The translations under genes and the position numbers were made by a program. A stretch of DNA of 26,254 nt from a virus, in IMG/VR virus record IMGVR_UViG_3300035145_002495, positions 1 to 26,254 of that record; one strand, written 5' to 3'. The notes beneath the pieces were generated by a model. The model ran no database searches. It worked only from the letters and a program-made list of their open reading frames with translations, and had not been told where the DNA came from. Position 1 is the stretch's first letter, and every line of letters starts with the position of its first letter. Below, in pieces: positions 5,069 to 26,143 of this stretch.

Positions 5069-5094
5069 TGTTATGTCTCCAAATTACATAACAG

Positions 5095-5102
5095 TATTTA
5101 TC
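5095..5102 (-). promoter_or_regulatory. T4-late-like promoter box GATAAATA of the tail protein gene
   Basis: The minus strand reads CAGATAAATACTGTTATG, one base from consensus with the T4 late box TATAAATA and nearly identical over 18 bases to the copy at 10036-10045. If the box is the -10 element, transcription starts near 5089 on the A of an ATG that is followed directly by TAA, a two-codon start-stop. The real gene begins 21 bases later at GTG 5068. Confidence 0.65.
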
Positions 5103-5106
5103 TGAT

Positions 5107-5775
5107 TTAGCCAGAGTAGAACTGAGTTACTCGCTCTCCCCAGAGGTTTGCGTAATGGTCAAACTCGTCGCCCTCTATGACAAAATCTGCATACTTGCCC
5201 TCACGGTCCACCATGAGAATAGCAACTTGTTTGATGTCGCTATCAAACATTTCGTTGTGGGCCAGTGCATACGCACAGCCCTGTAGGAAATAGTTTTCGA
5301 TCCATTCACGCTTTTTGATCTTTTTAGCAGTCTTGAAGTCGATAATGCTGGGCACACCGTTAAACATACCCACAGCGTCACTGGTTCCTGCGTACAAGCC
5401 CTCTGCGATAAGGCCCACTTCAACTCCCCACATTTCTTCCACCTGGCTGAGGCCTTGATCTATCATAATCTCCACAGCATTACGAGCCATGTGTTGAATA
5501 AGATTATTGCCCTTAACCACATAGTCTTCGCCCAGTGCATACTTTTCCAGACTGTCGTGCACTTTGGTGCCCCAGTTTGCACTCTCTGTGCTGATACGTT
5601 GTGCTTCTGCTTCGCCTACACGTTTGCGCCAGGCAATCAGGTGGGTTTTGTCCGAAGTTTTGTCCAGTATTGTGGTCACACTGGGCACTGGGTCACCAGT
5701 ACCATCAGTATAATTGCGTTTGCCGTCTACTTGGACACGTTTTAGATTAGGGTAATTGTATTTGTTTACTATCAT
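5107..5775 (-). CDS. PD-(D/E)XK nuclease of the RecB/Cas4-like type, 222 aa
   Basis: Motifs appear in the family order. A GT-K-V-H block contains H73, GTSDAVG contains D133, IIDFKT contains D146 and K148 (the D-x-K core), and Q165 and Y169 form the QxxxY motif. A PSVTTIL stretch near residue 31 is typical of these phage exonuclease-like proteins. The likely role is DNA cleavage or end processing in recombination, replication or host DNA breakdown. Four-cysteine iron-sulfur ligands as in Cas4 are not present. The start is the ATG at 5775, with no Shine-Dalgarno sequence. The predicted transcription start of its own sigma70-type promoter coincides with that ATG. It sits oddly between structural genes, but its own promoter would allow earlier expression. 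The fold is well supported, the substrate unknown. Confidence 0.88.
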   Translation of the reverse strand: MIVNKYNYPNLKRVQVDGKRNYTDGTGDPVPSVTTILDKTSDKTHLIAWRKRVGEAEAQRISTESANWGTKVHDSLEKYALGEDYVVKGNNLIQHMARNAVEIMIDQGLSQVEEMWGVEVGLIAEGLYAGTSDAVGMFNGVPSIIDFKTAKKIKKREWIENYFLQGCAYALAHNEMFDSDIKQVAILMVDREGKYADFVIEGDEFDHYANLWGERVTQFYSG

Positions 5776-5781
5776 ATATAC

Positions 5782-5810
5782 ATTGTATACAATTATATTT
5801 ACTTTGTCAA
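5782..5810 (-). promoter_or_regulatory. Sigma70-type promoter of the RecB-like nuclease gene
   Basis: On the minus strand a perfect TTGACA (5810-5805) and TACAAT (5787-5782) are spaced by exactly 17 bases. The -10 box lies within the 12-base palindrome ATTGTATACAAT (5782-5793). The start site expected from this geometry is base 5775, the A of the ATG, so the message would be leaderless. The -35 box lies inside the 3' end of the preceding SGNH gene. Confidence 0.65.
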
Positions 5811-6479
5811 GAACTTTTCTGTGATAACTTTGCTGAGCCTTTGGCTAAAGTCAGCATGTTGCTCTCTGCTATAATGTTTATCGTACTCTGTATACCAGGG
5901 GGTTATTTCCAGATTGAACAAGGCTAAGTCTAGTTGGAATAAGTGGCCTATCCATGGCTGGCTAAGAATATGTTGCCAGTCAAGAAAATCATGACCAGAA
6001 ATATCATCATCACTCCATTCCAGAGGTTTCACCATCACATGTAATACATTCTGGGTTTTTTGTCGCACTACTGCATCTGTGCCTATAATTAGCATTGACT
6101 GATCAAACTGAATATTATCACGGGCAGACATGTGCTCCACAACAAAGTTTTTTATGTGTAACAAGTTCTTATCATCAGTTGAAGGGCAAAACTGTATATT
6201 ACCATCGTCGGTGAGTATCATGTTTCTGTAGAATCCATCGCTCCACATAATAACAACCACATCGTCACTGGCTATGTTATGTACATTATTGGTGACATCG
6301 TATGCAATGGCCTTGTTAGAATGGCCACCCACAGCCAAATTACTAACTCTCATGTCTAAAATATCCGCCGTGATTTTGGGCCACGCACTATCAGACGGTA
6401 TAACATCACTTGCCTGTACATGTTTTTCTAGTCCAACGCCTTGTGTGAAACTATCACCAAACGCAAATAGTGTGGCCAT
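5799..6479 (-). CDS. SGNH/GDSL-fold hydrolase-like protein, copy 1, 226 aa
   Basis: The N-terminus reads ATLFAFGDSFTQG, with the nucleophile-type serine at residue 10 in a G-D-S-F block. A block II-like NLAVGG follows near residue 49. The C-terminal region carries D-K-H-Y-S-R-E-Q-H, giving a D-x-H and a further His as in block V. A canonical GxND block III is not visible, the equivalent stretch being VVVIMWSDG. The family contains esterases and carbohydrate deacetylases, so glycan trimming at the virion or cell surface is possible. I choose the ATG at 6479 over a TTG one codon earlier, because it overlaps the preceding stop as TGATG, a coupling arrangement. It is a diverged tandem copy of the next gene. 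Confidence 0.8.
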   Translation of the reverse strand: MATLFAFGDSFTQGVGLEKHVQASDVIPSDSAWPKITADILDMRVSNLAVGGHSNKAIAYDVTNNVHNIASDDVVVIMWSDGFYRNMILTDDGNIQFCPSTDDKNLLHIKNFVVEHMSARDNIQFDQSMLIIGTDAVVRQKTQNVLHVMVKPLEWSDDDISGHDFLDWQHILSQPWIGHLFQLDLALFNLEITPWYTEYDKHYSREQHADFSQRLSKVITEKFLTK

Positions 6480-9100: not shown

Positions 9101-9132
9101 AAGTATAATTCCCGATGATGTCTATTATACTT
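9101..9132 (-). promoter_or_regulatory. Inverted repeat in the leader of the 429-aa gene
   Basis: A perfect 9-base inverted repeat, AAGTATAAT at 9101-9109 and ATTATACTT at 9124-9132, is separated by 14 bases. It abuts the ATG at 9100, and its loop contains GGGA, the only candidate ribosome binding site. Its distal arm touches the GATAAATA box. It may control translation as RNA or act as a DNA operator. If transcription starts near 9126, the RNA hairpin would be partly truncated, which favours the DNA-site reading. Confidence 0.45.
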
Positions 9133-9139
9133 ATTTATC
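9132..9139 (-). promoter_or_regulatory. T4-late-like promoter box GATAAATA of the 429-aa gene
   Basis: GATAAATA on the minus strand lies 32 bases before the ATG at 9100, in the only gap (9101-9157) between the neighbouring genes. It matches the T4 late consensus at seven of eight bases. A start near 9126 is predicted. Confidence 0.6.
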
Positions 9140-10035: not shown

Positions 10036-10043
10036 TATTTATC
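10036..10043 (-). promoter_or_regulatory. T4-late-like promoter box GATAAATA of the 87-aa gene
   Basis: The minus strand reads ACAGATAAATACCGTTATG, almost the same as the box before the tail protein gene. Only six bases separate it from the ATG at 10030. With T4 late geometry the transcript begins at 10030, giving a leaderless message. Confidence 0.6.
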
Positions 10044-10144: not shown

Positions 10145-10930
10145 CTATATGCACACCCAGTCATTGGGTACCAAATCTTCATTTGAAATATCGGATTCCG
10201 GATTGAACCACTGTGCAGGTGCGATTACAGTTTTATCTGTGTTATCTGACAACCAGGCACCCCACCAGGAAAACGTGCTATTACCTATGATAAAATCACT
10301 ACACTGACTCATCTTGTACATGTCTTTAGCACTGTCTTTTTCTGTGGAAATAACAAATCTGCTAGACTGAAATAATGGTTGCTTTGCGCACCAGTCTGTG
10401 TCGTCGCTGAACACTATCACTGGTCGATCTGGTTCAAACCGAGCCAGGGCCTGTTCATAGTAATCCATGTTTATTTCACTGAATATATGTTGTAACAACA
10501 AATAATCAGTTCTTCTCACGTGTAATGCTATTGCGTGTTTGTTGATGTCCACCCCCTGTTTGATGTGCGGCCTGAACACAAAGTCCTGTCTGATTACGTC
10601 ATGTATGTTGTCAAAGTATCTGGGGGATTGGAAGAATCCAATTAAATCCACATTATCAGGGCATCTGACCATCAATTGTTTATTGAACGGCATGCGGCGA
10701 TCTTCCAGATCCAATTTGGGTAATTCTGTGTCCACAAAAGGACCATCAATTTGGAAAGTGTCGTATAGAACTTGCTTGATCAAGACACCTTGTGGTGTTT
10801 GGAACGTGTTGGAGTGCTTGTGCAAGCCATACTTGAAGCCATTTGCGTGTGCTATGCCACGCATAGCAGCATACTGAAACATCTGATTGCCCAGCAATCC
10901 GTTAACGCCCAGAGTTGATTGTGTGATCAT
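10145..10930 (-). CDS. Glycosyltransferase family 11, alpha-1,2-fucosyltransferase-like, 261 aa
   Basis: This enzyme would transfer a deoxyhexose, typically fucose from GDP-fucose, onto a glycan in the host cytoplasm. Family blocks are intact. GLLGNQMFQYA lies at residues 11-21, HVRRTDY, with the donor-binding H-x-R-R-x-D motif, lies at 137-143, and FSDD begins at 174. SDFIIGNSTFSWWGAWLS lies at 211-228 and PAQWF near 238. The length of about 260 fits short bacterial members. The ATG at 10930 overlaps the oxidase stop by four bases (ATGA), so the two are translated together. Possible roles are changing the host surface polysaccharide to block other phages or decorating virion proteins. Family assignment is firm, the acceptor unknown. 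Confidence 0.92.
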   Translation of the reverse strand: MITQSTLGVNGLLGNQMFQYAAMRGIAHANGFKYGLHKHSNTFQTPQGVLIKQVLYDTFQIDGPFVDTELPKLDLEDRRMPFNKQLMVRCPDNVDLIGFFQSPRYFDNIHDVIRQDFVFRPHIKQGVDINKHAIALHVRRTDYLLLQHIFSEINMDYYEQALARFEPDRPVIVFSDDTDWCAKQPLFQSSRFVISTEKDSAKDMYKMSQCSDFIIGNSTFSWWGAWLSDNTDKTVIAPAQWFNPESDISNEDLVPNDWVCI

Positions 10931-11549: not shown

Positions 11550-13559
11550 TCACTTTTTGGATTTTCCAGACTTCATGTTGGCGCACCAGTGATACATTTT
11601 ACCTTTCTCACCGCTGTACTTCTTGGCTTTGGCGCGGAGACTACTCACTGAACCTTTGCAACTGGCTCCTGCCTTCTTTACTCGGCCTGGTCTACTCTTG
11701 CCTTTCACTTTGCCATCTTTAAAGTTTTCGCCTAATACTGCAACCTCATCTGGAACTTCAAACTGCCACACTATGCCCTTACCATGTTTGGCCATCATTG
11801 CTGTGAGTCTAGTATTACCACCTATAAGTTCTTTATAGCCGTCACTGTATACAGCAACAACAGGTAACTCAACATCGCCTTTTTCTACTTGTGCTAGTGC
11901 ACGTTTTTGTTTTGCTGGGTCCAGTGCTTTAAAACTGTCAGGATCAGCGGCATCAGTGTTGTTAATATCACTTGCATCAGTTATGGTGACTGCTTTGCCT
12001 TTACCGGCAAGTTTTATCCATGCCTCTTTACCAATCTTGCGAAACTCTGGATAACGTTGTGCTTCTTCCCACTCAACATCTAGTTGTGGTTTTGTGAATC
12101 CTTCGCTAACATGCTTTTTGCTTACCAACTCATATTCTACCATGTCGCCATAGTCGTCTATGTATGCCTGATATCCTAAACTATCTGCAAATCGTTCCAC
12201 CATGCGTGTGTATAGTTTGGCACGACTCTCTGGATCTTGACCTTCAGGAACATCTTTTGTTGCTGTAAAACTTACCGCGCCTGGCTTCTCCATTCTGATA
12301 AATTGTCTTACGGCTTCCATCATGGTGGCAAATATTCTGAAAGCATCACCATCGCCTGTGACGTCCTGGCTGCCTCCCCTGTAAAACTCCATATCCCAAA
12401 TGCCACCATGCTCAGTGAACAATATCTCCATGCCGGTGCCATCAGGTAATCTCAATGCTGCTTCATAGTCATCACTGTCAGGTGACTGTATCACTTTTAC
12501 AGGATAAGGCTGATTAAAACTTTCAGCAAACACGTCACTAGCTGTATGTTCGAAGTCTTTGATTAGCTCTTGCAGTGTGGCGTCAACCATGACCACGTTT
12601 GTTTTCTCTGCCCCCAGGTGCTTCAATGCATCTAGTCTGTGATGGCCATTCACCAAATAACCGTTCTTGTCCACAATCAGTGGCTTGTTCTTCATTTTAC
12701 CCTTGTACAGTCTGTCTATCACTTTGTTGGTCAAACCAGGAACTCTCTGACTTTGACTGGGTTTAATTTTATCCAGTGCCAGGCGTCCCTTTACCACACG
12801 ATAATTATGTTTAACATGTTTTATGTTTATTTGTGGCATCTCTTTTCTGGGAATATCCACATCACTTTCATGTTTAAATCTGGGCTCTTCTTCCTCGCTT
12901 ACCTTATCCAGTTTAGCACTGTTGATCCAGGCTTTGGCATCTTTTGTGTGAGGTTTGGATATAAAGGAGTCCAGTTGTTTTTTGGCACTGGCGATGTCTC
13001 TGTCAAAAACATCGGAAGAGTCTGAATTGATTTCTATGTAATCTTTACCAAACTCTGACTTTAACGCAGGCAATGAATCTTGTACCTGCTTGTGTGCGTC
13101 AGCAACCAGTGCGCCTGGGACACGTCTAGAACGCTGAGAATTTCTTTGCATGGCAGTTCGCAAACTGGTGTTCACAAAAATCAGTGCAGTGTGGTAGCCT
13201 AAATTTTCCAGTGAGCGTTTCATGTTTAAAATTTTGTTGGGGTCTTTGGCTGTGCCATCAATCACCACGCCCAACCTGCCTGACAAAAATCCCTGCTTTT
13301 TGAGATCGGTAAGTTTTTTGGCGCGGTCTCTGAGTTCTTGTCCTTGATCGCTGGCAATACTGCCAGGGCTCATGTCCATGTCATGCTTTTGCATCAGATA
13401 TTCAAATGCTTGATCACTGTCAATAGTTTTCAAGCCCATGCTGGATAGACTCAAGTGGCGGGCGGCATAGCTCTTGCCACTGCCTGGACCACCTGCTAAA
13501 AATATTGCACGAAAAATACCTGGGTCTTCAGGACCCTCGTTTAAATCTAGAAACTTCAT
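11550..13559 (-). CDS. Multidomain phage protein: P-loop kinase (zeta-toxin-like) with two ParB-like segments, 669 aa
   Basis: Residues 18-30 hold a Walker A loop, GGPGSGKS (23-30), with DSDQ near 47 and VVIDGTAKD near 98-106, as in zeta-toxin and polynucleotide-kinase-like P-loop proteins. A ParB/sulfiredoxin-type segment follows, PLIVDKNGYLVNGHHRLDAL (293-312). A central module of unknown fold starts around FNQPYPVKV (348). A second ParB-like segment has LIGGNTRLTAM (578-588). The C-terminus is basic and ends in CKGSVSSLR ... GKMYHWCANMK (634-663), a recurring phage tail motif. The N-terminus MKFLDLNEG gives an L-N-E site at 6-8, and E-S or E-G junctions precede the middle (FAES, 344-347) and last (VSEG, 484-487) modules, so it may be processed as a polyprotein. 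It overlaps the upstream stop by four bases. Substrate unknown. Confidence 0.8.
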   Translation of the reverse strand: MKFLDLNEGPEDPGIFRAIFLAGGPGSGKSYAARHLSLSSMGLKTIDSDQAFEYLMQKHDMDMSPGSIASDQGQELRDRAKKLTDLKKQGFLSGRLGVVIDGTAKDPNKILNMKRSLENLGYHTALIFVNTSLRTAMQRNSQRSRRVPGALVADAHKQVQDSLPALKSEFGKDYIEINSDSSDVFDRDIASAKKQLDSFISKPHTKDAKAWINSAKLDKVSEEEEPRFKHESDVDIPRKEMPQINIKHVKHNYRVVKGRLALDKIKPSQSQRVPGLTNKVIDRLYKGKMKNKPLIVDKNGYLVNGHHRLDALKHLGAEKTNVVMVDATLQELIKDFEHTASDVFAESFNQPYPVKVIQSPDSDDYEAALRLPDGTGMEILFTEHGGIWDMEFYRGGSQDVTGDGDAFRIFATMMEAVRQFIRMEKPGAVSFTATKDVPEGQDPESRAKLYTRMVERFADSLGYQAYIDDYGDMVEYELVSKKHVSEGFTKPQLDVEWEEAQRYPEFRKIGKEAWIKLAGKGKAVTITDASDINNTDAADPDSFKALDPAKQKRALAQVEKGDVELPVVAVYSDGYKELIGGNTRLTAMMAKHGKGIVWQFEVPDEVAVLGENFKDGKVKGKSRPGRVKKAGASCKGSVSSLRAKAKKYSGEKGKMYHWCANMKSGKSKK

Positions 13560-16030
13560 TTTTTAAGTTTAAAGCCCAATCTGTCTTTTGCCATGGTCGC
13601 CGCATACCCCTTGTTTACTAACTTGGGAGCACCTTCAAACACAGCTGGATATTTTGTATAGTAGTCCATGGAAACACCGTCACCCACTTTTTTGCCTTTT
13701 TGTAACACCTGTATAAAGTTATTGTTGTTGAGTGTTTCTTTCATGGCGTCAATAAATTCTTGATCGCTGTTAATCATGGGAATAATGATGTTTACTATGC
13801 CTGCAAGCAGGCGGAAAAATACTCTGTAGTTGGGGTGTGCTTCATCCTGTACACCCTGATTCGCCGCAATGTTGTACAGCGTCTGGTTTGTGATAGACTT
13901 GAGATCCTTGCTGTCCAGCGGCACTGTCTTGAAGTCTTCAACGTCCTGATCTGTCAGGACGCCCAGTTGTCTAGCGGCTAACACTGGCCCTAGTTTTGTG
14001 GGGCTGGTGCCCAGCAGTTTCATTATTGCTGTGCCACGTGGATAGCGTTGCTCTATCTCTGGAGTCAACTGATTTACGACACCACTGAGGCTGCTTGTTG
14101 CTCCACCACCAGTGTGAGCTTTACTGCTGATTCCGATTTCTTTGCCATCAGGAGTTCTAATTATACTGTCCACCAACGGATAGGCAGTGTCGTCCGGGAA
14201 CATTATAGTGCTTCCAGCAAGTGTTGTCAAGCCATAGGCCTCCAACATTTTGGCTGTGTCTCCTTTAAGGTTACCACCGTCAATCAGGGAAAGTGGACCC
14301 AGGTATTCGCCAGCATATTTTTGTAGCACATTAAAGTACTTGGATGCGTTTTCTATTGGACTTGTATCATTTGCTCTTGCTTTTGACACCGCATCGTTTA
14401 ATACAGCAACCAGTGCATCGTGCTCTGTTCCTGCAAACTTGGTTGTTGCGTTATGGTCAACATCAGAGGCTATCTGATCCGTAGTAATATATGCGTTGGG
14501 TGTAACCATGTCGCTGGGCTTGACTGGTATGCTTTCACGACTTGCGCCCTTGCTGTATTTGTAGCCACGAAGTGTTTTCCACAGATTATCCACACCGCTT
14601 GGTGGTATGGACTTAATAAATCTAACCCAATATTGATCGTCGCCCTGTTCTGTTGACACTGTTGCCACAATGGCAGCTTTACTACCAGCAGTGGGATTGT
14701 TGTCATCTATACGCATACCGTTATCAGGAACTGCTTTGTCCAATACACTTTGCAATTGCTCTACGCTGTCATATGCAGGATTACCGTCGTTAGGGAAAAT
14801 ATCTATACTTTGTATGGTTAAAATATCCTGGGGGTTGGAGTCACTAATATATTGCTCACCTGGTTGTCTGGCTGTTACACCACGCGACTCAGCTATGACA
14901 CTTTCTGAAACTTGCTTTTTCTCTTTGGGGTGCAACTGGCGATCAGCAAATGCTTTGAACACTGGACGCAAATCCACGTTTTTTCCTGCCGTGGCAATCT
15001 GTGCACGGAACTCACGCACCATGCTGGGATCCGGAACCACAAAGTATGCTTGCATCTGTGCCTTGATATCACTTCCCAACAGTGGCTTATTCATGATCTC
15101 GTTGTAATCACGCTTGGTGTTGTGTACTGGCACTGCACCTTCTTTTACTTTATTACCAGACTTATTGGGGTGCTCAAAACCTTTGGCCTTTTTCTTTTTC
15201 TTTTTGGGTGTACCATATGATGTAAGCAGGGCCGCCATGTCTTGCTCTGCCTCAATGGTTTCGTTCTTTTTCTTTTTGCCAGCACAGTGAGCTTTTTGGC
15301 TGAAGCCTTTGGGATCGCTACAATTAATACTTTTTTTGTATTTTGCGCTCCATGCCTCATCAATTTTCTTTTTGTCTACTTTGCTTAACAGCTCCAATTG
15401 TTCTGCCAATGGCAGGTTATCGAATTGATCAAATGCGCTTTCCTTGACTATCTGTATTCCCTTGTCCTTGATGTGTCTTTGCCAAACAGGGTCAGTGCTA
15501 TTAGCCCATTGGAAGCCATCCATGTCCTGGCCTTTTTGTACACTGAGACGATATACCAACTTGCCATACTTTTGCTGGATATCCTGAATAACTTTTTCGT
15601 ATTGAGCGATCTGTTCAGGGGTGAGCTCTGAACGTGCTGTTCTCAATGCCTCTGATGCAGATTCAAAATTTCTATGGTCTTCAGTGTTCACAAACACAAT
15701 ATCTGTGTTGGGATCGAAGGGAGCATCAGGGTTATATTCATCCTGTCCTGCATAAGCACTACGCTTTATGTATGGCTGTGCTGTGTGGCCGTGTGGTATT
15801 TTTAACACGGGTGCCCTTTGCGGTTCATCATGTTTTACCATCAAAAATTTGTCCAGCATTGCAACTGCAGGAATCAGGAAATCATCATTGATGTCTCCTT
15901 TCATATAATCTGAATTACGTACCAGATGGCGCTGTATTGCTTTGACAATATCATCACGACTAACTCCAAACTCTTTAAGTCCCTGACGCATGCCCCTAAC
16001 AAGTTGTGTTGTAATTTTAAATTCAGCCAT
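13556..16030 (-). CDS. Large phage head-associated protein with nuclease-like segment, 824 aa
   Basis: The first 220 residues are helical. INCSDPKGFSQKAHCAGKKK (235-254) is a Cys-Cys-His-Cys-type basic motif known from several phage proteins, preceded by KKKIDEAWSAKYKK. A lysine run follows near 275-283. At 379-382 I-A-E-S forms an internal (L/I)-x-E site, separating a C-terminal domain. In that domain GEYLGPL (574-580), PLVDSII (618-624) and EIGISSKAHTGGGATSS (631-647) are arranged as in some restriction-type nucleases, with E575, D621, E631 and K637 as candidate active residues. The nuclease reading is tentative. The start ATG at 16030 overlaps the amidoligase stop by eight bases. The likely location is the virion interior, by analogy and position. 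Confidence 0.75.
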   Translation of the reverse strand: MAEFKITTQLVRGMRQGLKEFGVSRDDIVKAIQRHLVRNSDYMKGDINDDFLIPAVAMLDKFLMVKHDEPQRAPVLKIPHGHTAQPYIKRSAYAGQDEYNPDAPFDPNTDIVFVNTEDHRNFESASEALRTARSELTPEQIAQYEKVIQDIQQKYGKLVYRLSVQKGQDMDGFQWANSTDPVWQRHIKDKGIQIVKESAFDQFDNLPLAEQLELLSKVDKKKIDEAWSAKYKKSINCSDPKGFSQKAHCAGKKKKNETIEAEQDMAALLTSYGTPKKKKKKAKGFEHPNKSGNKVKEGAVPVHNTKRDYNEIMNKPLLGSDIKAQMQAYFVVPDPSMVREFRAQIATAGKNVDLRPVFKAFADRQLHPKEKKQVSESVIAESRGVTARQPGEQYISDSNPQDILTIQSIDIFPNDGNPAYDSVEQLQSVLDKAVPDNGMRIDDNNPTAGSKAAIVATVSTEQGDDQYWVRFIKSIPPSGVDNLWKTLRGYKYSKGASRESIPVKPSDMVTPNAYITTDQIASDVDHNATTKFAGTEHDALVAVLNDAVSKARANDTSPIENASKYFNVLQKYAGEYLGPLSLIDGGNLKGDTAKMLEAYGLTTLAGSTIMFPDDTAYPLVDSIIRTPDGKEIGISSKAHTGGGATSSLSGVVNQLTPEIEQRYPRGTAIMKLLGTSPTKLGPVLAARQLGVLTDQDVEDFKTVPLDSKDLKSITNQTLYNIAANQGVQDEAHPNYRVFFRLLAGIVNIIIPMINSDQEFIDAMKETLNNNNFIQVLQKGKKVGDGVSMDYYTKYPAVFEGAPKLVNKGYAATMAKDRLGFKLKK

Positions 16031-18233
16031 CTTTGTTAAACCTTTGTGCCTTTAACAGCAGTTGTACCATAAACTGTGTAAATCCTTGTTTGGCTTCTTC
16101 TGGATTACTTTCCAGTTGTTCATATGCAGAGCTCAGTTGCTCCACTGCATCTAATCTCTCGCCGGTAGTGTTTAGGATACTCCTAGCAGCTCTGACAAAT
16201 TCTGTGTCAGGCAAACTGACGTTAACATCACTTCTGGTAGCAGTCAGTTTATCATCACTTGCTGTTTTGTTTACCATCCTGTATACAGTTTTCAAAAAAT
16301 CTTTTCTGTTGTACGGCCTATCTTCACTTGCAGCATTCATAGTGGCTGCATAGCGTATAACTGCCTTGGCTGCTTTTTCGTAATTTGTATGGTAGTCGCT
16401 ACCACCAGCAATTCTAAATTCAATCAAATCGTTTCCATCAGAATTTTTAGCGCCTTTGAAGTTAATACTGCTAAACTTGCCCTTGTCCAGTCCTCTGCTC
16501 AGTATGCCATAAAGCTCATCAAAGTCTTCAGCCGACCCACCATCTTTTAATAATCGTTCAATTTCAAATTGAATATTTTTTTGCTGGCTTTTGGCATAAC
16601 TGTTGTATTGACGATCAAACTGCTTTAGCACATATTGGTCTCCCAGAAGCACAGCCAGTACAAGTTGGTTGGTTTCCTTAAAGTCTCCAGCAAAGCTCAT
16701 GGTAACATGCAAACCAGTTGAACTGTTTGTTTCCACTTCCTCTTCTTCAAAGTGCTCAAACAGGCTCTTCATCTCTGCTAACATTTTTCGGGGACTGTCG
16801 TATACTGGTGAAATAATTTCTGCTTTGGCGCCGCTACCTTCAATTGAGCTGTCATCTTCCACACGCCAGTAAGTGTTATCAATGCCTTTTCCGCTGTGAT
16901 AGCTGCCTTGTCGTATTTCGTCTGTTTGGCTGTGGGCACTGGCCCAACTCTGCAAACTCTCTTCCACACTATCCAAATCATTTTGCATTTCATCTTCCAT
17001 GTAGATATCAAAATCTATACAAGCAGAACTCCACAGGCCGTCATAGATTTCAGCACACCAATCATCCATGCTCACCTCTTCTCTGGCACGTTCCCATGCT
17101 TCTTCCCAAACCTCGCCGTTATCTCGAATATCTTCTTCCAGCCACTCTTCAAAACTTTCTGAAAGTTCCTGTTCTATGTACTCTCTGGCCCACGCATCAT
17201 AATCCCACTCTTCATATTCGTCCAGTTCTTGTTGGTAGGATTCTGCTTTGGCTCGATAACGATCAACTACTTTGGAGGAGCCATCAGGATCTTGTTCCTC
17301 CTGATCCGCATTATTGTTCATGGCGTCTCTGCTATCTCTAAAAAAGTCTAATCGCTGTTCTTTGTAGTCTTCAACATCATCCTCGTATACCTGCTCATCG
17401 GCGTACCTGTCTATGTAATCTTCATCTTCCCGGCGTTCAGCAACAAGTTCCCGGGTCAGCTCATACTCGTATGTACTTGTGTGTTCTTCACTTAACCAGT
17501 CGTTGTATGCATTGGACATCTGGTCCAGTTCTCGACTGAATCCCTGTTCATAGGCAACGCCCCTGATCATATCCCAATCAGCATAATCCCAATTGAACCC
17601 TTCTATGCCGCCCATCAAATCAGGCCATGTAGTCTCTGCTTCAAAGCCACATTGTATGGGAGCATTCAGTGCACTGGTGATTATGTCCTTGCTGTTAAAA
17701 TTGATCTCAAAGACGGGTTCTCCCTGAACTGCGTGTTTCTGTGCACGTAGCACTCTCTTGATCTTTTGGCGCAGTTTGTTCTTGCGCTTGAGCATTTTGT
17801 CCAATTTGTCTTCAGAGGATTCTGTTACTTCTAGTTCACTATCTGGTTCAACAGTTACATACTCGCCTTTTATGTTTTTGGCCACAATAGTATCTGGTGC
17901 GCTTTTGTTTTTGCCCACTGCGCCCACAATCTCCAGGTTCTCACCATCAGCATCCACTGCTTTGGCACCTGGCTCAATGTCTTTGGCCACACTGATTTGT
18001 GGTTCAGGTTTCTCTGGTTCCTGGACTGTTTTACCTGGATTTGGATTTAGTGTGGGGCTGTTACTGGGTGCTGTGGTCGGACTTTTGCTAGTACCCAGTA
18101 CACTTTTGGATTTTTCTTTTGTTGCTTTTGCTTGTTGTCCAGTTTGCTGATCCCCCACTGATGTGCTCACACCAGGCTTCATACCATATTCAGCTAATAA
18201 TGCATTCAGCGTTGATAAGTCTTTGGCTTTCAT
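16023..18233 (-). CDS. Amidoligase (glutamine-synthetase-like COOH-NH2 ligase) with large acidic insertion, 736 aa
   Basis: The predicted reaction is ATP-dependent joining of a carboxylate to an amine, forming peptide-like bonds or modifying proteins. Family motifs occur in order: CGFEAE (195-200), WRVEDDSSIEG then AKAEIISPVY (456-478), TGLHVTMS (506-513), KFSSINFK (586-593) and DLIEFRIAGGS (602-612). The usual His after GLHV is Thr. Between the first two motifs lie about 250 residues, far more than normal, and these are extremely rich in Glu, Asp, Tyr and Trp. The first 170 residues are low-complexity Pro/Ser/Thr and then a basic KRKNKLRQKIKRVLR helix. L13-A-E15 near the start is a possible prohead protease site. 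An AGGT site lies five bases before the ATG. Family call is good, substrate unknown. Confidence 0.82.
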   Translation of the reverse strand: MKAKDLSTLNALLAEYGMKPGVSTSVGDQQTGQQAKATKEKSKSVLGTSKSPTTAPSNSPTLNPNPGKTVQEPEKPEPQISVAKDIEPGAKAVDADGENLEIVGAVGKNKSAPDTIVAKNIKGEYVTVEPDSELEVTESSEDKLDKMLKRKNKLRQKIKRVLRAQKHAVQGEPVFEINFNSKDIITSALNAPIQCGFEAETTWPDLMGGIEGFNWDYADWDMIRGVAYEQGFSRELDQMSNAYNDWLSEEHTSTYEYELTRELVAERREDEDYIDRYADEQVYEDDVEDYKEQRLDFFRDSRDAMNNNADQEEQDPDGSSKVVDRYRAKAESYQQELDEYEEWDYDAWAREYIEQELSESFEEWLEEDIRDNGEVWEEAWERAREEVSMDDWCAEIYDGLWSSACIDFDIYMEDEMQNDLDSVEESLQSWASAHSQTDEIRQGSYHSGKGIDNTYWRVEDDSSIEGSGAKAEIISPVYDSPRKMLAEMKSLFEHFEEEEVETNSSTGLHVTMSFAGDFKETNQLVLAVLLGDQYVLKQFDRQYNSYAKSQQKNIQFEIERLLKDGGSAEDFDELYGILSRGLDKGKFSSINFKGAKNSDGNDLIEFRIAGGSDYHTNYEKAAKAVIRYAATMNAASEDRPYNRKDFLKTVYRMVNKTASDDKLTATRSDVNVSLPDTEFVRAARSILNTTGERLDAVEQLSSAYEQLESNPEEAKQGFTQFMVQLLLKAQRFNKDG

Positions 18234-19205: not shown

Positions 19206-19213
19206 TATTTATC
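19206..19213 (-). promoter_or_regulatory. T4-late-like promoter box GATAAATA, leftward arm of a divergent pair
   Basis: The minus strand reads ACAGATAAATATTAC, 28 bases before the chosen ATG at 19178. The predicted start is near 19200, leaving a 22-base leader that includes GGGGAA. It faces away from the plus-strand box at 19231-19238. Confidence 0.6.
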
Positions 19214-20518: not shown

Positions 20519-20526
20519 TATTTATC
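20519..20526 (-). promoter_or_regulatory. T4-late-like promoter box GATAAATA of the 75-aa gene
   Basis: GATAAATA on the minus strand is followed by AAAAGTATAC. The predicted start near 20513 gives a 55-base A/T-rich leader ending in AGGAGAA before the ATG at 20458. Confidence 0.6.
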
Positions 20527-20540
20527 TTTTTGGGCGATTT

Positions 20541-21026
20541 TTATACGCCTTTGGTGTACTTGTCAGCAAATTTTGTACCAGTTTTAATGCGTGTCGCAAG
20601 GTAATCTTTGATATCACCCAGTTTTCCTTTGAGTTTCGTGCCTGCACCATCATCTGAATCAGAGGATTGTGGCTTCGCTTGGGGTTTAGCCCTGGGCTTA
20701 ACCTTTTTGGCCTTTTCTTTGCTGGGTTTAACGGGAGCGGGCTTGCTCACAGGCGGCGCGGCTGGCTTTTGTGACGCTGGTGGCTGGCCTTTTTTAGCTA
20801 ACTGTCTCCTGTATAGCGATTCTGCTTTACCCATGCTCATGCGGTAACCATCTTTTCTGATGATTGCATGTACATCATTTTTGATCACATCATTGCTGTA
20901 AAAATCAATGTCATCTAAATCGTCTGCATCTTGTTTTAACGCGGCCCATGCCTGTTCGAACTCATGTGCGTTCTGTGGCATCAGTGTATCCGACTTGTCC
21001 TGTTCAAATAATTCGTGTAATCTCAT
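20541..21026 (-). CDS. Basic Pro/Lys-rich phage protein with putative capsid-targeting N-terminus, 161 aa
   Basis: MRLHELFEQDKSD at the start gives L6-F-E8, an (L/I)-x-E site after a short leader much like those of T4 internal proteins. The middle is acidic and helical, followed by a Pro/Lys-rich linker (about residues 82-122) and a basic C-terminal helix. The linker plus basic end suggests contact with packaged DNA. I start at ATG 21026, supported by AGGA seven bases ahead and by the ATGA overlap with the upstream stop. An earlier TTG at 21047 is rejected. The function is unknown. Confidence 0.75.
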   Translation of the reverse strand: MRLHELFEQDKSDTLMPQNAHEFEQAWAALKQDADDLDDIDFYSNDVIKNDVHAIIRKDGYRMSMGKAESLYRRQLAKKGQPPASQKPAAPPVSKPAPVKPSKEKAKKVKPRAKPQAKPQSSDSDDGAGTKLKGKLGDIKDYLATRIKTGTKFADKYTKGV

Positions 21027-21748
21027 TTCTTTTTCCTGCCCGCCCAAAATCCTGCAATAGCACCTAGTCCTGCACTGGCTACTTGTTTGGCTGTGTCTGA
21101 AGTTTGTGCTTTGGGAGCCACTTTGGGCAAGTTTTTAAATTTAGGTTGCTTCAGCATGGGCGCAATAATTTTCATTAGCTCAGTGTACTGTCCTGAACCA
21201 CTACCAGTTCTGCGAAGCTCTTGTATAATTTGAGCAACTACTCTTTGCTTGCTACTGTATTTTAGGTTTGTCCAGTTGGTGATCATTCTTCTCCAACCTC
21301 TATATCTACCGTCGGTTACTTCCATCTGCTTTTCCAAACGATACAGATAGGTTACAGCTTCGCCCCGCTCATCCTGACTTTGCGCAATCTTTCTCACAAA
21401 TCTGGTGTGCATTTGTTTGTTAAAGTTCAAGTTCTTGAGAAACCGTTTTCCTTCAACAGGATCTTTTATTTTAGCATAATCGTTATTGGGGTGCAACACT
21501 TGGTAGCACAACATGTATAAATCTGTTGCATGTGTTCGAAACAGACTGTATGTACCAAATTGTATGGTCTTTTTAGCATACTCACGTGCTTCTTCCGATG
21601 TGTCCTGGTTTTGCGCCAGCATGTATGTGAGCATAGTTTCCAGGTATAGCATGTTAGCGATCTCTCTGGCAGTCAGTGCGCCAAAACTTCTGCTGGCTCT
21701 GAACAATCTGGCTTCACATAAATCTGTATCAAGCAGTTGAAATTCCAT
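21023..21748 (-). CDS. Conserved phage protein with C-terminal glycine-zipper-like end, 241 aa
   Basis: No known enzyme motif is seen. MEFQLLDTDLCEARLFRAS gives L10-C-E12 before Ala13, a good prohead protease match. The body is helical with LTAREIANMLYLETMLTYML and a basic middle (GRYRGWRRMITNWTNLKYSS). The end AGLGAIAGFWAGRKKK is a short glycine-zipper-like hydrophobic segment closed by lysines, possibly able to insert into or touch a membrane. The ATG overlaps the upstream stop as TAATG. A role in the ejected protein set is inferred. Confidence 0.75.
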   Translation of the reverse strand: MEFQLLDTDLCEARLFRASRSFGALTAREIANMLYLETMLTYMLAQNQDTSEEAREYAKKTIQFGTYSLFRTHATDLYMLCYQVLHPNNDYAKIKDPVEGKRFLKNLNFNKQMHTRFVRKIAQSQDERGEAVTYLYRLEKQMEVTDGRYRGWRRMITNWTNLKYSSKQRVVAQIIQELRRTGSGSGQYTELMKIIAPMLKQPKFKNLPKVAPKAQTSDTAKQVASAGLGAIAGFWAGRKKK

Positions 21749-22890
21749 TATCTCTGTACCGCCCTGTTTGCTTTACTGAAAAATTCTCTGGGTACAAGTT
21801 TGATATCACCCTCAGGGTGTGCCAAAACATAACCCTCGCCGCCTTCACCATGTCCTGGAATGCTTTGCTTTACTGCCATGCCCTGGCTATCAAATTTGTT
21901 TACAATGTCATCCTTGATTTTCACAATGGCATTGTACATTACCCACACTGCCTGAAATCCTGCCTGGTGTTCCTGCAAATATGCTGTTAGATTGTCACGC
22001 TTGCGTTGCGTGAGCTTGCTGGATTCTAACCACTGCATAAAGTCTGCACCCAGGTTACTGAAGTCTGTGTCCACCTTGCTGTTACAATAACTGTACAAAA
22101 TATCAGGCAAATTTTTCAGCTGGCGTGCTGCAAGCTCTGTGGGATTTAACAGGTCGTCTATCTGTGCGCCATATTTACTCACTGTGCGCTTGAGTAAATC
22201 GATACCTCTGGTGTCCACTTTGACTGGCTTCTCTGCTGTGACTGGTGGAACCACAAGTACATCACTGCCCTGGAAAATATCCGGATCCTGCAAGGGTTGT
22301 TCCGTGCCATCAGGGTCCACTTGTCTGTGAATTACCACGCCAGTTTTGCTGGCGCCTATCTTTTTGCCCAGCTCACTGTTAGCATCCACGCTGTACTGTA
22401 CTAGTTGTGGCTTGAACACATACTGTCCGTCCTGTAGTTCAGGTGTTGTGAAGTATAACATATCACCTTTGAAAAATCCTCTGTAGTCTGCAGGCACTGC
22501 CTGTTCAAACAGCGGATAAATGGACACCATAGCGTCAACCAATTTGCCATATCCCTCAGGATTGTTTTGATACCCTTTACGGGCTTTAAGCATTGCTTCT
22601 AGTTCTTCTGCTGATTTTGATCTTCCGTCGTAGCCTTTGGCAGTGAAACCACTTTTGTCAGTGAGTATAAAATTGCCAGCTTCGTCCCGGCCAAAAATAA
22701 CAGCAGGGCTGCCATCCCACTTAACAGTGACATCTTTGTGACCCTCTTTTGACATTTGCTCTAAACTGTTGATAACACGCTGTGCTCCTGCACTGCCTTC
22801 CCAGAACAGGATATCTTCAGCATGTTGTATACGTGCGCCTTCAGTGAGGACACGTGGCATGTATGGATATTGTATCTCTACAAACTTCAT
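21748..22890 (-). CDS. DNA/RNA-ligase-like covalent nucleotidyltransferase, 380 aa
   Basis: The core motifs of the ligase and capping-enzyme superfamily can be read. Motif I KWDG has candidate nucleotidyl-lysine K57 (57-60), GDMLYF (142-147) resembles motif III, EGYV (352-355) motif IV, and IKLV with K364 motif V. About 160 residues separate the last two from the rest, longer than in small ligases. No OB or zinc domain is recognised. I recall the opening MKFVEIQYPYMPRVLTEGAR from an uncharacterised family of marine T4-like phages. L15-T-E17 before Gly18 fits a prohead protease site. It overlaps the nucleotidyltransferase stop by four bases, so the two are probably a functional pair. Whether it seals, caps or modifies nucleic acid is open. 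Confidence 0.8.
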   Translation of the reverse strand: MKFVEIQYPYMPRVLTEGARIQHAEDILFWEGSAGAQRVINSLEQMSKEGHKDVTVKWDGSPAVIFGRDEAGNFILTDKSGFTAKGYDGRSKSAEELEAMLKARKGYQNNPEGYGKLVDAMVSIYPLFEQAVPADYRGFFKGDMLYFTTPELQDGQYVFKPQLVQYSVDANSELGKKIGASKTGVVIHRQVDPDGTEQPLQDPDIFQGSDVLVVPPVTAEKPVKVDTRGIDLLKRTVSKYGAQIDDLLNPTELAARQLKNLPDILYSYCNSKVDTDFSNLGADFMQWLESSKLTQRKRDNLTAYLQEHQAGFQAVWVMYNAIVKIKDDIVNKFDSQGMAVKQSIPGHGEGGEGYVLAHPEGDIKLVPREFFSKANRAVQR

Positions 22891-23726
22891 TGTATGTCCT
22901 CTGGTACACCCAGCTCTTGTACTTGATGATTATCTTTAAACGCCTGCATGATCTTTTCTACTTCTTCAGCAGGATAGTTCTTCTTGATTGCGGCATGCAG
23001 ACTTTCATAACTATCCAAATCTGATGCCTTGTCAAGCCCCAACGCTTTTACGATACCGTCAGCAGTTTTAATGGGCTCGCTTATAATTTCGTTGTTGTTC
23101 TTTTTGGTGTATCCGTCACCTGACTTCTTGGGCACAGGTGTACGCTTGATGCGCACCAGTCCATCTGTAGGGCTCCACATCCAGCGTTCACTTTCCACAG
23201 GACGACCATCGTCAATGGTATCTTGACTGTCCTGTCTGTCGTGTATTGCCGCAATGGTGGCAATCAGGATGTTACGGAACACGCCCTTGTATTTGCTGTC
23301 TTTTTCGTGCGGACTGTGATAATATACTTTCATCCAATCAGGATCGCCAGGCATGAAGTCCACCTGCACATATCCTGTTCTGGGCTTGCTGGTTTGTTTG
23401 CTTTCATCATAACCCACGATTTTAACCTTGGTCATGATCACACTGCTCTTGGCAATGTCTAATACTTCAGGTGTCTTTTCCAGTCTGCTCATGAACTCCG
23501 GAATATCTTGTGCATCAATTTTAAGTGCTACATCGATATCACCAGAAAATTCTTTCTTGCCCACACTACCCAATACATTGTTCTGGAGGTCCAAGCCCAA
23601 TACTTTTTCCAGAGCACTTAGCGTGGGTTTAATTTCATCAATATGGATCGGTCCCACACCAGGCATCGCACCGCCTTCAGTGATCTCGAACTTTTTGGGT
23701 GTAGTGAAAAACTCAAAAAGTTTCAT
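22887..23726 (-). CDS. Pol-beta-type nucleotidyltransferase, 279 aa
   Basis: The fold is shown by VLGSVGKKEFSGDIDVALKI (51-70): Gly53-Ser54, then D63 and D65 of the D-x-D metal site. A third acidic residue, D123, lies in YVQVDFMPGD. Such enzymes add a nucleotide to RNA, DNA, protein or small molecules. The N-terminus has I15-T-E17 before Gly18, at the same positions as the LTEG site of the next protein, which suggests shared processing. Coupling is tight: its start overlaps the upstream stop as TAATG and its stop overlaps the ligase-like start as ATGA. The substrate is unknown. Antitoxin-like or RNA-repair uses are possible. Confidence 0.85.
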   Translation of the reverse strand: MKLFEFFTTPKKFEITEGGAMPGVGPIHIDEIKPTLSALEKVLGLDLQNNVLGSVGKKEFSGDIDVALKIDAQDIPEFMSRLEKTPEVLDIAKSSVIMTKVKIVGYDESKQTSKPRTGYVQVDFMPGDPDWMKVYYHSPHEKDSKYKGVFRNILIATIAAIHDRQDSQDTIDDGRPVESERWMWSPTDGLVRIKRTPVPKKSGDGYTKKNNNEIISEPIKTADGIVKALGLDKASDLDSYESLHAAIKKNYPAEEVEKIMQAFKDNHQVQELGVPEDIQ

Positions 23727-26143
23727 TATTTGTCTTCTGATTCGTCTGTTTCGTCGTCAGAGTGAATGTCGTTGCGAACAATCTTGGCTTTTCTAGCTCG
23801 TCCACGATCTGCTCTGGCTTGGAACGTTGCCTTATCAAAACCAGGCTTCTTGGCGGCTGGCTTTTCTGCGTCAATATCTGCTTGTGCTTTGTTAGCTGCA
23901 TCAACGTTTTGCTGTCCCAATGACCCAGGAGCAGATGGTTGTGCTGGAGCCGGTGCCGCTGGCTTACCTGGCGCTGGTGCTGCTGGCTTACCTGGCGCTG
24001 GTGCTGCTGGCTTACCTGGTGCTGCTGGCTTACCTGGTGCTGGTGCTGCTGGCTTACCTGGTGCTCCAGCGTCACCGCCTGCCGCCGCGCCTGCTTTAGC
24101 ACCCGCTACCGCACCTGCAGCGGCGCCTGCCGCTGCCCTGCCAATTGTACCTGCCGCTTTACCTGCGGCCGCGGCACCTTTCTTAGCCATACCAGCAACT
24201 GCTTGCCCAATACGGCTAGTCATTCCTGGTTTTTTAGGTGCATCACCTGCTGGCTGTGCATCTTGTGGTTGTGCTGGTTGTCCAGGTTGTGCTGGTTGTG
24301 CAGGTTCAGGTGTCTGATCTGGTGCTGTAGCAGGTTCAGCTACAGGTGTAGCAGGATCAGGTGTCTGAGCTGGCGCAGGTTCCTGGGTAGGTTTAGGAGC
24401 GGCGCCGGGGGAAGGGACTTGAGCGCCTGGTGCTCCGTCAACCTCTGCAGACCCCCCGTCGCCACTTGTTTGGGTTCCCTGTCCAGGCTGGGATGCTGGA
24501 GCAGGTTTTTCAAATTTAATATTGGTTTGTTGTGATACTGCTTGCAGTGCTTTGTTATCCATGCCTGCAGCCTGTAGTACACCAAATACTGATGCGGCAT
24601 CTGTTGGCTTACCTGCCTTGGACCACATCTGATTCAGTTTACGTGCAGTAATCTGTTGGCCTAGTTCTTTGCCTACTGCTTTAGCGCCTTTGGCTACTGC
24701 GGCACCAGCCTTGCCTGCAGCGGCGCCTACTGCGCCTGCTGCTTTTGCGGCACCTTTCTTGATGTCAGCCCAACCAATTTCGTTTACAATTTTTTGTTCG
24801 CTTTCTGTTAGTGGCAAACCTGCTAAACGCTTGGTGTATAGCAGTTCGTAGTCTATGCTTTCTTTCTTGTTGTTGTCCATTGTGGCGGCTGTAACGGCGC
24901 CTTGGCCCACGCCTGCTGCAACGTCTGCAATCTGATTCATAACAGCGATGTCTGATGCTGCATCACCAGTAAGTTTAGCAATAGTATCCTGTAGACCAGG
25001 GTTGCTCAGTGCTTCTTTGCCTGCCTGTGAAATTGCAGACATAGCTTCCTGACCTTTTAGGAACACTTCATAATTTTGTGCATATTCAGCTGACTGAGTG
25101 AGGTCTTTGACATACTCAAATGCCTTGCCCACTTGTGATATATATTCTGGATTAGCAGCCCCATCCACAATAGGCTTTATATTGTCTGCCGCAGACAGCA
25201 GGGCTTGATATTGATTGTATTGATCTGGTGTCAGCAACACATCACGCATGTTAGCACCCACAATTTGGCCCTGTATATTTTGTATGTTGCTAATGTCCAT
25301 GATTGATGCATCAGCAACTGATGAGCCCTGCAAAATTTCTGCCGCGTCACCAAACTGGGCTTTGGCATCTGCCACTGCCGCAGTTACATCAGCATCTTTC
25401 ATTTGCTGAACAGTGTTAGCAACATCATTCATCTCAGTGGTGCTGAACCAATCTTTGACTTCTGTGCTCATCCAATCAAATGCTTTACCAGCCAGGAAGC
25501 CTGCTACCGCAGTCTTCATGGATTTGCCAACTGCTGTACTGAGCTTTTCCCCTGCCAATAGGTCATTACCCATGCGCAGTAGGAAACCTGCGGCGGCACC
25601 GCCTGCTGGTCCTGCGGCAATGGATGCGGCTGCTGTGAGCAAGCCCACTGCAAATTTTGCGGCGCCAGGGTGCGCTTTTGCAGCATCGCTTAGTTTTGTA
25701 ACAATCTGGTTAACTTTGGAATCTTGGCCGCCAAGTTTGTCATACATGTCCTTCTTGGCTTTTTCAAATGCGGCGTCAATGTTTTTAACAGGAGTAGTGT
25801 CCTGTATCATTTTGCCCAACTGATTAATTTTATTGTTAACCTGTCTGACTACGTCTGCACCAACTTTAACAGTGCCCGCCACAGCGGCGCCAGCACTTGC
25901 TGCTGCGTTACCTGCTTTACCTAAGCCAGTTTGGAATTCACCAGAGCTAATGGCATACTCTTCTGCACTTTTGAACAGTGCATCAATCTGCTGTGCTGTT
26001 AACTCAGCCTCAAACAGATCAATATTTTCTTTAATTAGCTGAGCTACTTCATCCCACTCTCTAAGGTAATTTCTGGTATCCTCATTGAGTGTAATCCAAA
26101 CGCTTTCTGTTAATATGTTTCTACTAAAGTGTTGAGCCGACAT
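23726..26143 (-). CDS. Large Ala/Gly/Pro-rich internal virion protein, 805 aa
   Basis: RNILTESVW gives L11-T-E13 before Ser14, a strong prohead protease match, and LPLTESEQ (about 440) offers an internal one. Residues of about 155-225 are a long Ala/Gly zipper segment (VGLLTAAASIAAGPAGGAAA) fit to cross or bury in a membrane. A second Ala/Gly/Lys repeat region lies near 460-490. The block ITARKLNQMW then KAGKPTDAASVFGVLQAAG is a recurring phage motif. A proline-rich region with tandem PGKPAAPA repeats covers residues 693-729, and the tail is acidic. It resembles large internal proteins ejected with DNA. AGGGG precedes the ATG at 26143. No enzyme motif is seen. Confidence 0.78.
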   Translation of the reverse strand: MSAQHFSRNILTESVWITLNEDTRNYLREWDEVAQLIKENIDLFEAELTAQQIDALFKSAEEYAISSGEFQTGLGKAGNAAASAGAAVAGTVKVGADVVRQVNNKINQLGKMIQDTTPVKNIDAAFEKAKKDMYDKLGGQDSKVNQIVTKLSDAAKAHPGAAKFAVGLLTAAASIAAGPAGGAAAGFLLRMGNDLLAGEKLSTAVGKSMKTAVAGFLAGKAFDWMSTEVKDWFSTTEMNDVANTVQQMKDADVTAAVADAKAQFGDAAEILQGSSVADASIMDISNIQNIQGQIVGANMRDVLLTPDQYNQYQALLSAADNIKPIVDGAANPEYISQVGKAFEYVKDLTQSAEYAQNYEVFLKGQEAMSAISQAGKEALSNPGLQDTIAKLTGDAASDIAVMNQIADVAAGVGQGAVTAATMDNNKKESIDYELLYTKRLAGLPLTESEQKIVNEIGWADIKKGAAKAAGAVGAAAGKAGAAVAKGAKAVGKELGQQITARKLNQMWSKAGKPTDAASVFGVLQAAGMDNKALQAVSQQTNIKFEKPAPASQPGQGTQTSGDGGSAEVDGAPGAQVPSPGAAPKPTQEPAPAQTPDPATPVAEPATAPDQTPEPAQPAQPGQPAQPQDAQPAGDAPKKPGMTSRIGQAVAGMAKKGAAAAGKAAGTIGRAAAGAAAGAVAGAKAGAAAGGDAGAPGKPAAPAPGKPAAPGKPAAPAPGKPAAPAPGKPAAPAPAQPSAPGSLGQQNVDAANKAQADIDAEKPAAKKPGFDKATFQARADRGRARKAKIVRNDIHSDDETDESEDK
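23957..24064. repeat. 24/18-bp tandem repeat encoding PGKPAAPA-type units
   Basis: Five units beginning GCTGGCTTACCTGG lie head to tail at 23957, 23981, 24005, 24023 and 24047. Units 1, 2 and 4 are 24 bases, units 3 and 5 are 18. Units 1 and 2 are identical, and unit 4 differs from them by one base. The length differences are whole codons, so the reading frame of the 805-residue protein is kept. The repeat probably expands and contracts by slippage. Confidence 0.9.

Follow-up and report, generated by a model that had tools for sequence, protein, structure and literature searches.

Why should two overlapping viral genes, one encoding a nucleotidyltransferase-like and the other a ligase-like protein, both begin with a short leader that ends in what resembles the same protease site? 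The question is raised by a marine virus of bacteria, IMG/VR virus record IMGVR_UViG_3300035145_002495, whose positions 1 to 26,254 (all 26,254 nucleotides, hereafter ‘the window’) contain gene A (22887-23726, minus strand, 279 amino acids) and gene B (21748-22890, minus strand, 380 amino acids). A check of open reading frames (ORFs) returned exactly the coordinates proposed in the original prediction, together with the four-base overlap (22887-22890, ATGA) that combines the TGA stop of A with the ATG start of B, an arrangement suggestive of translational coupling. The answer that we favour, tentatively and with slightly less than even confidence, is that A and B are head-packaged enzymes, delivered with the genome and acting as an end-repair pair.

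Gene A encodes a minimal nucleotidyltransferase resembling DNA polymerase beta (Pol beta) and family X polymerases (Pol X), with a palm and a thumb behind the N-terminal leader. Related sequences were gathered from viral contigs and phage records, and 22 A and 24 B proteins were aligned. The motif L52-G53-S54...S61-G62-D63-I-D65 (G53 to D65 at 23532-23570, minus strand) is joined by a third carboxylate, D123 (within YVQVDFM; 23358-23360, minus strand); G53, S61, G62, D63, D65 and D123 are invariant in the A alignment, and S54 is conserved in at least 90% of members. The metal triad is present and invariant, and the motifs named in the original prediction lie at the residues that it gave, in B as in A, with the catalytic residues of both proteins, S54 of A excepted, invariant in the alignments.

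No significant Pfam or PHROG match was obtained for A, Pfam Pol X included, and PDB sequence searches with the A and B family profiles returned nothing significant. An AlphaFold2 (AF2) model of A built from the family alignment has a mean predicted local distance difference test (pLDDT) score of 88.4, falling below 50 at residues 1-17. When this model was compared with the PDB by Foldseek, the top 50 matches were all DNA polymerases beta or lambda, nearly all of them Pol beta (probability 1.00, E from 4.7e-5), with most alignments spanning ∼220-255 columns, thumb included, at moderate template modelling (TM) scores of ∼0.4. Profile comparison by hhalign joined A, at 75.1% (P=2.5e-5) and in the expected register, to aligned Pol X proteins from phages, bacteria, archaea and human; the cellular Pol X subset gave 71.8% and the phage subset only 0.5%, with controls at 2.5% (CCA-adding enzymes), 0.1-0.2% (RlaP), 0-1.9% (ligases) and 0.4% (reversed Pol X). 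The human Pol beta query sequence matched PDB chains; the RlaP control is shallow (two sequences only), as the viral contigs gave no new distinct RlaP relatives. Two other identities were considered for A: neither RlaP (no PF10127 match, and the hhalign value above) nor a CCA-adding enzyme (2.5%) is supported.

Like family X DNA polymerases, A combines a palm bearing GS...SGDxD and a third aspartate with a thumb; unlike them, it lacks the 8-kDa and helix-hairpin-helix (HhH) fingers domains, its model showing no domain ahead of the palm, carries YYHSP in place of the YFTGS motif, and has an extra C-terminal region. Given the moderate TM-scores and the absent fingers and 8-kDa domains, we call A Pol X-like rather than Pol X: as modelled, it is a minimal palm-thumb form and not a member of the family. 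The earlier label of ‘pol-beta-type transferase’ is thereby sharpened.

Gene B belongs to Pfam DUF6267 (PF19782; E=1.2e-33, 117.5 bits against a cut-off of 27), residues 21-379 covering profile positions 4-375 of 376; a literature search found no paper naming this family. From N- to C-terminus, B carries KWDGSP (motif I), TDKSGF (at the motif Ia position), GFFKGDMLY (III), TGVVIHR (IIIa-like), EGYV (IV) and IKLV (V). All 24 aligned members share K57-W-D-G60 (22711-22722, minus strand), which contains the candidate lysine for a covalent nucleoside monophosphate adduct, G142-D143-x-L145-Y146, E352-G-Y-V355 (21826-21837, minus strand) and K364-L-V366 (K364 at 21799-21801, minus strand). B thus keeps the motifs of the ligase/capping superfamily in order, as had been proposed, with the motif lysine invariant, and it is mainly from these motifs that we assign the fold. 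A helical stretch of ∼110 residues (approximately 227-335) separates IIIa from IV, and the chain stops ∼15 residues past K364, with only one helix (368-377) after motif V. ATP-dependent DNA ligases carry a C-terminal oligonucleotide/oligosaccharide-binding (OB) domain; since the B chain ends so soon after motif V, it has no such domain, and none was found C-terminal of motif V in either its sequence or its model. Compared with T4 Rnl1 and Rnl2 and the fungal tRNA ligase Trl1, B shares the ordered motifs I, III, IV (EGYV) and V, lacks an OB domain past V, and has its helices inserted ahead of motif IV where those enzymes have a C-terminal helical domain; sequence comparison detected no similarity to them, nor did the Pfam RNA_ligase profile match B.

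The AF2 model of B (mean pLDDT 86.5, residues 1-11 below 50) drew RNA or tRNA ligases, DNA ligases or a capping complex as 21 of its top 50 Foldseek matches in the PDB, each individually weak. Within a viral structure library, DUF6267 relatives came first, and the first match annotated outside the DUF6267/cytidyltransferase group was a 324-residue RNA ligase of Agrobacterium phage Atu_ph07 (probability 0.80). Agreement in exact length, phage and annotation suggests that this ligase is the product of the gene overlapping the A homologue of Atu_ph07; the overlapping gene matches PF09414 RNA_ligase at E=0.002, below cut-off.

The leaders of A and B are the feature that ties the two enzymes to the virus head. 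T4 gp21 cuts after L/I-X-E, and propeptides of 10-19 residues target internal proteins into the T4 head (PMC9026906). Residues 1-17 of A (MKLFEFFTTPKKFEITE; 23676-23726, minus strand) end in the predicted head-protease site ITE↓GG, and residues 1-17 of B (MKFVEIQYPYMPRVLTE; 22840-22890, minus strand) in LTE↓GA, where the arrow marks the cut. These (I/L)TE↓G-type leaders, which the original prediction had expected to be cut after residue 17, extend family-wide and above background: the protease motif marks the domain boundary in every distinct N-terminus, 27/27 for A (background 0.4% per sequence window) and 42/42 for B (background 2.9%). Stand-alone A proteins have leaders of 4-33 residues, a length exceeded only when another protein is fused ahead of A; leaders end in hydrophobic-x-E, and the next residue is G or S in A, while B has G, A or, in some proteins, another residue. 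The glutamate and the hydrophobic P3 residue are conserved despite this variation in length and are absent from leaderless relatives, of which those of A in jumbo phages begin M-GG or M-SG at the predicted mature N-terminus, while cyanophage DUF6267 proteins begin near the cut site, just before a HLEHLED-like sequence. Low AF2 confidence is confined to the leaders in both models. Beyond A and B, [LIVMF]xE[GAS] occurs within the first 27 residues of 8 of the 25 minus-strand genes of the window (shuffles averaged 2.1, and 1/2000 reached 8).

Related motifs also mark fusion junctions: LSE↓G and LTE↓D in locus L025; INE↓S and LSE↓G/LRE↓S in L034; IVE↓G and LIE↓S/LNE↓A in L082; and ITE↓G and LNE↓G in L022 and L028. 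The L082 fusion (3603-6101, plus strand) is a single 833-residue ORF in which A and B follow an HxGH nucleotidyltransferase-like domain, and both of its junctions carry head-protease-type sites. We propose from these patterns that the A and B leaders behave as T4-type capsid-targeting propeptides. The parallel with the internal head proteins and Alt of T4, which are cut by gp21, lies in the short N-terminal leader ending in L/I-x-E; the cargo differs, consisting here of polymerase-like and ligase-like enzymes that in relatives are fused into polyproteins, and T4 has gp21 whereas a protease of this clade was not seen here.

Gene linkage also speaks for a functional pair. In 37/43 A loci, A and B lie side by side or are fused, the six exceptions being L022 and L028, in which A is the downstream part of a fusion with a large protein, and L029-L032, which are near-identical; B loci that first seemed to be without A carry a divergent A directly upstream. 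The consistent separation in relatives that would have spoken against the pair is therefore not what we find, the two genes being adjacent or fused almost everywhere. Two rhizobial jumbo phages, Atu_ph07 and Phosso, have the order RNA_ligase-like gene, A, C, with a ligase family different from that of B; C is the gene that follows B in the window, and its homologue lies directly after A in both phages (phmmer 5.2e-20 and 1.7e-13, respectively). An A-ligase-C module is thus common to the virus of the window and the rhizobial phages, with C completing it. An HxGH cytidylyltransferase-like partner adjoins B in P-HM1 and G005 and is fused to B in S-PM2, in addition to the HxGH-A-B fusion of L082.

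The favoured reading brings these elements together as follows. The leader would target A and B into the prohead core, and a gp21-type protease would remove it after E17, leaving the mature N-termini GGAMPG (A) and GARIQH (B); the mature enzymes would be ejected into the cell with the genome, where A would add or fill in missing nucleotides at a broken 3' end and B, charged with AMP on K57, would seal that end. Targets might include tRNAs cut by host nucleases, with 5' ends possibly prepared by a phage kinase encoded at 11550-13559 (minus strand). This 669-residue protein has a leader of its own (LNE8↓G), a P-loop kinase part that resembles Zeta toxin and polynucleotide kinase (Pfam Zeta_toxin 1.9e-11, AAA_33 1.8e-10; PHROG polynucleotide kinase 6e-9) and a ParB-like part, and is possibly the 5'-end kinase partner of A and B. 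RNA is the more likely substrate, given the RNA-ligase neighbours of B, the RNA_ligase-like partner of A elsewhere, the absent OB domain, the 20 tRNA genes of related phage G001 and the CCA-adding enzymes of relatives, with their leader-like N-termini; DNA retains a claim, since A resembles DNA polymerases and cyanophage DUF6267 genes lie beside replication genes. A comparable pairing of the nucleotidyltransferase RlaP with an RNA ligase has been described for jumbo phages (PMC7824862). There too a Pol beta-fold nucleotidyltransferase stands beside a ligase and lost nucleotides are restored before sealing; A, however, is not RlaP, B is no known Rnl1 or Rnl2, and head-packaging leaders are found here. 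The original prediction is supported in part: its superfamily assignments, gene linkage and propeptide-like leaders stand, while cleavage, presence in the virion and a broken tRNA or DNA end as substrate are steps that we infer.

Several observations weigh against this reading. At 4-5 residues, some A leaders fall below the cited range of T4 propeptides (7-65). The closest fold of A, that of a DNA polymerase, is as compatible with DNA as with RNA, and cyanophage DUF6267 proteins are leaderless and encoded among replication genes. B has no significant structural match in the PDB (best E 0.095, TM ∼0.2), and hhalign placed it at 0.8-0.9% with Rnl1 and Rnl2, joining it to no ligase; Rnl1 against Rnl2 itself reached only 2.6%, so that comparison of B with Rnl1, Rnl2 and DNA ligase is uninformative, known relatives also failing to join (the T4 Rnl1 and Rnl2 query sequences match database copies at 98-99%). 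No Pfam S77 or S78 head protease was found in 12 related marine contigs of up to 180 kb, an absence that does not decide the matter, as these contigs appear to be without a head module (capsid Gp23 gave only one fragmentary match in related contigs); among isolates with A or DUF6267, S77 was present in 7/7 genomes tested. Finally, the A homologue of PA5oct is listed as a virion protein by electrospray ionization tandem mass spectrometry (ESI-MS/MS), which is weak evidence, since this homologue is leaderless and ribonucleotide reductase is on the same list.

The alternative that survives best, although we consider it rather unlikely, is DNA repair: with A as a small Pol X that fills gaps and B as a divergent DNA ligase, the pair would close nicks, gaps or broken ends in the incoming genome; the Pol X and ligase of African swine fever virus (ASFV) form a comparable pair. 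The best structural matches of A, which are DNA polymerases beta and lambda over both palm and thumb, point this way, as do Foldseek matches of B to the ASFV ligase, LIG1 and LIG3. The cyanophage proteins (Pfam DUF6267, T4-like cluster GC 71, S-PM2_138) have the same motifs as B and differ from it in being leaderless, in lying beside replication genes (directly after gp43/uvsX/gp41, beside an HxGH gene) and in being fused in some cases to the HxGH enzyme; no A neighbour was present in the two such loci inspected. P-HM1 and S-PM2 gave no ATP-ligase match, and homologues of T4 g30 ligase were not found in cyanomyoviruses (PMC2984593). Against DNA repair stand the missing C-terminal OB domain of B, its EGYV, as in T4 Rnl1 and Rnl2, its RNA ligase as named structural neighbour, and the ordinary DNA ligase that G001, EniLVp02 and 2.275.O carry besides DUF6267. 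Given this co-occurrence in three carriers, DUF6267 is not simply the missing ligase, and we reject, as a general rule, the idea that it replaces T4 gp30.

It is improbable that A and B act on targets other than nucleic acid ends, transferring nucleotides to proteins, a small molecule or a cap as injected takeover factors in the manner of T4 Alt. Injected Alt does modify proteins, polyvalent phage proteins include Pol beta nucleotidyltransferase domains proposed to do the same (PMC5512222), and B is often linked or fused to an HxGH cytidylyltransferase-like enzyme, whose substrate need not be nucleic acid; A, on the other hand, is related to templated polymerases with a thumb and not to the small nucleotidyltransferases that modify proteins or drugs, and its partner in rhizobial jumbo phages is RNA_ligase-like. 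It is very improbable that the leaders are not propeptides at all, with E-G-G and E-A-R belonging to the enzyme folds and L/IxE incidental: the GG after the A site is indeed conserved, even in leaderless relatives, and the 12 marine contigs of the clade gave no head protease, yet the glutamate and P3 hydrophobic residue persist over variable leader lengths and are missing from leaderless relatives, the motif marks fusion junctions including HxGH-A-B, model confidence is lowest in the leaders, and the pattern recurs in unrelated genes of the window.

Head-delivered end repair by A and B may be part of something larger, a possibility that we regard as doubtful. A whole kit would then be delivered in the head, comprising the Pol X-like transferase, the DUF6267 ligase with its novel architecture, the HxGH enzyme and the P-loop kinase, joined in relatives by a CCA-adding enzyme and a phosphatase. 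Every member would have a removable capsid-targeting leader, certain viruses would make three of them as one polyprotein with the head protease cutting each junction, and DUF6267 would be an unrecognised class of polynucleotide ligase in marine T4-like phages. The end-repair reading, if correct, would give a function to DUF6267, which many marine cyanophages and related phages encode and which is listed as of unknown function. It would also make testable the old question of whether an unrecognised ligase is present in cyanophages, reported to be without the T4 DNA ligase gene (PMC2984593). The repair enzymes of a T4-like phage could then be at hand on entry instead of being made after infection, which is of consequence where host defences cleave tRNA or DNA within minutes. 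Fused enzymes with head-protease sites between them would give that protease a new role, the processing of polyproteins.

Within the window, A and B are the middle pair of four closely spaced genes, which overlap successively by 1, 4 and 1 nucleotides. Upstream of A lies a gene for an 805-residue protein (23726-26143, minus strand), probably head-internal, with the site LTE13↓S; downstream of B lies gene C (21023-21748, minus strand), which encodes a helical protein of 241 residues with no recognisable family and a site of its own, LCE12↓A. Five exact GATAAATA sites are present (5095-5102, 9132-9139, 10036-10043, 19206-19213 and 20519-20526), all on the minus strand and 6-61 nucleotides upstream of genes, against 0.79 expected; they are likely to be T4-type late promoters. 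None stands directly before A in the window, and such a promoter immediately precedes A in only 1/46 loci. Elsewhere in the window, two minus-strand genes were classified by eye: an amidoligase-like gene (16023-18233), with no significant Pfam match, and an alpha-1,2-fucosyltransferase-like gene (10145-10930).

Further leader-like N-termini were seen in related phages. Many proteins of G001, L028 and L029 start with MKINEI or MRINEV. A marine phage CCA-adding enzyme or poly(A) polymerase (L028:9777-10805, plus strand, with relatives L251-L305; PF01743, E=4e-36) has an N-terminus (MLINEV.. or MRINEVILHEE) resembling the same capsid-targeting leader. G001 encodes an HxGH nucleotidyltransferase-like protein (73550-75718, minus strand) with the leader-like MRLRQLFE↓A and a HAD-like protein (70939-71967, minus strand) with the leader-like N-terminus MRVHEIFENLGE. 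The tRNA genes of G001, 20 in number and covering most amino acids, form a cluster (L101:1932-4202, minus strand), and ARAGORN identified a permuted transfer-messenger RNA (tmRNA*) in the same phage (L103:2692-3076, minus strand), with the tag ANDNYAPETALAA.

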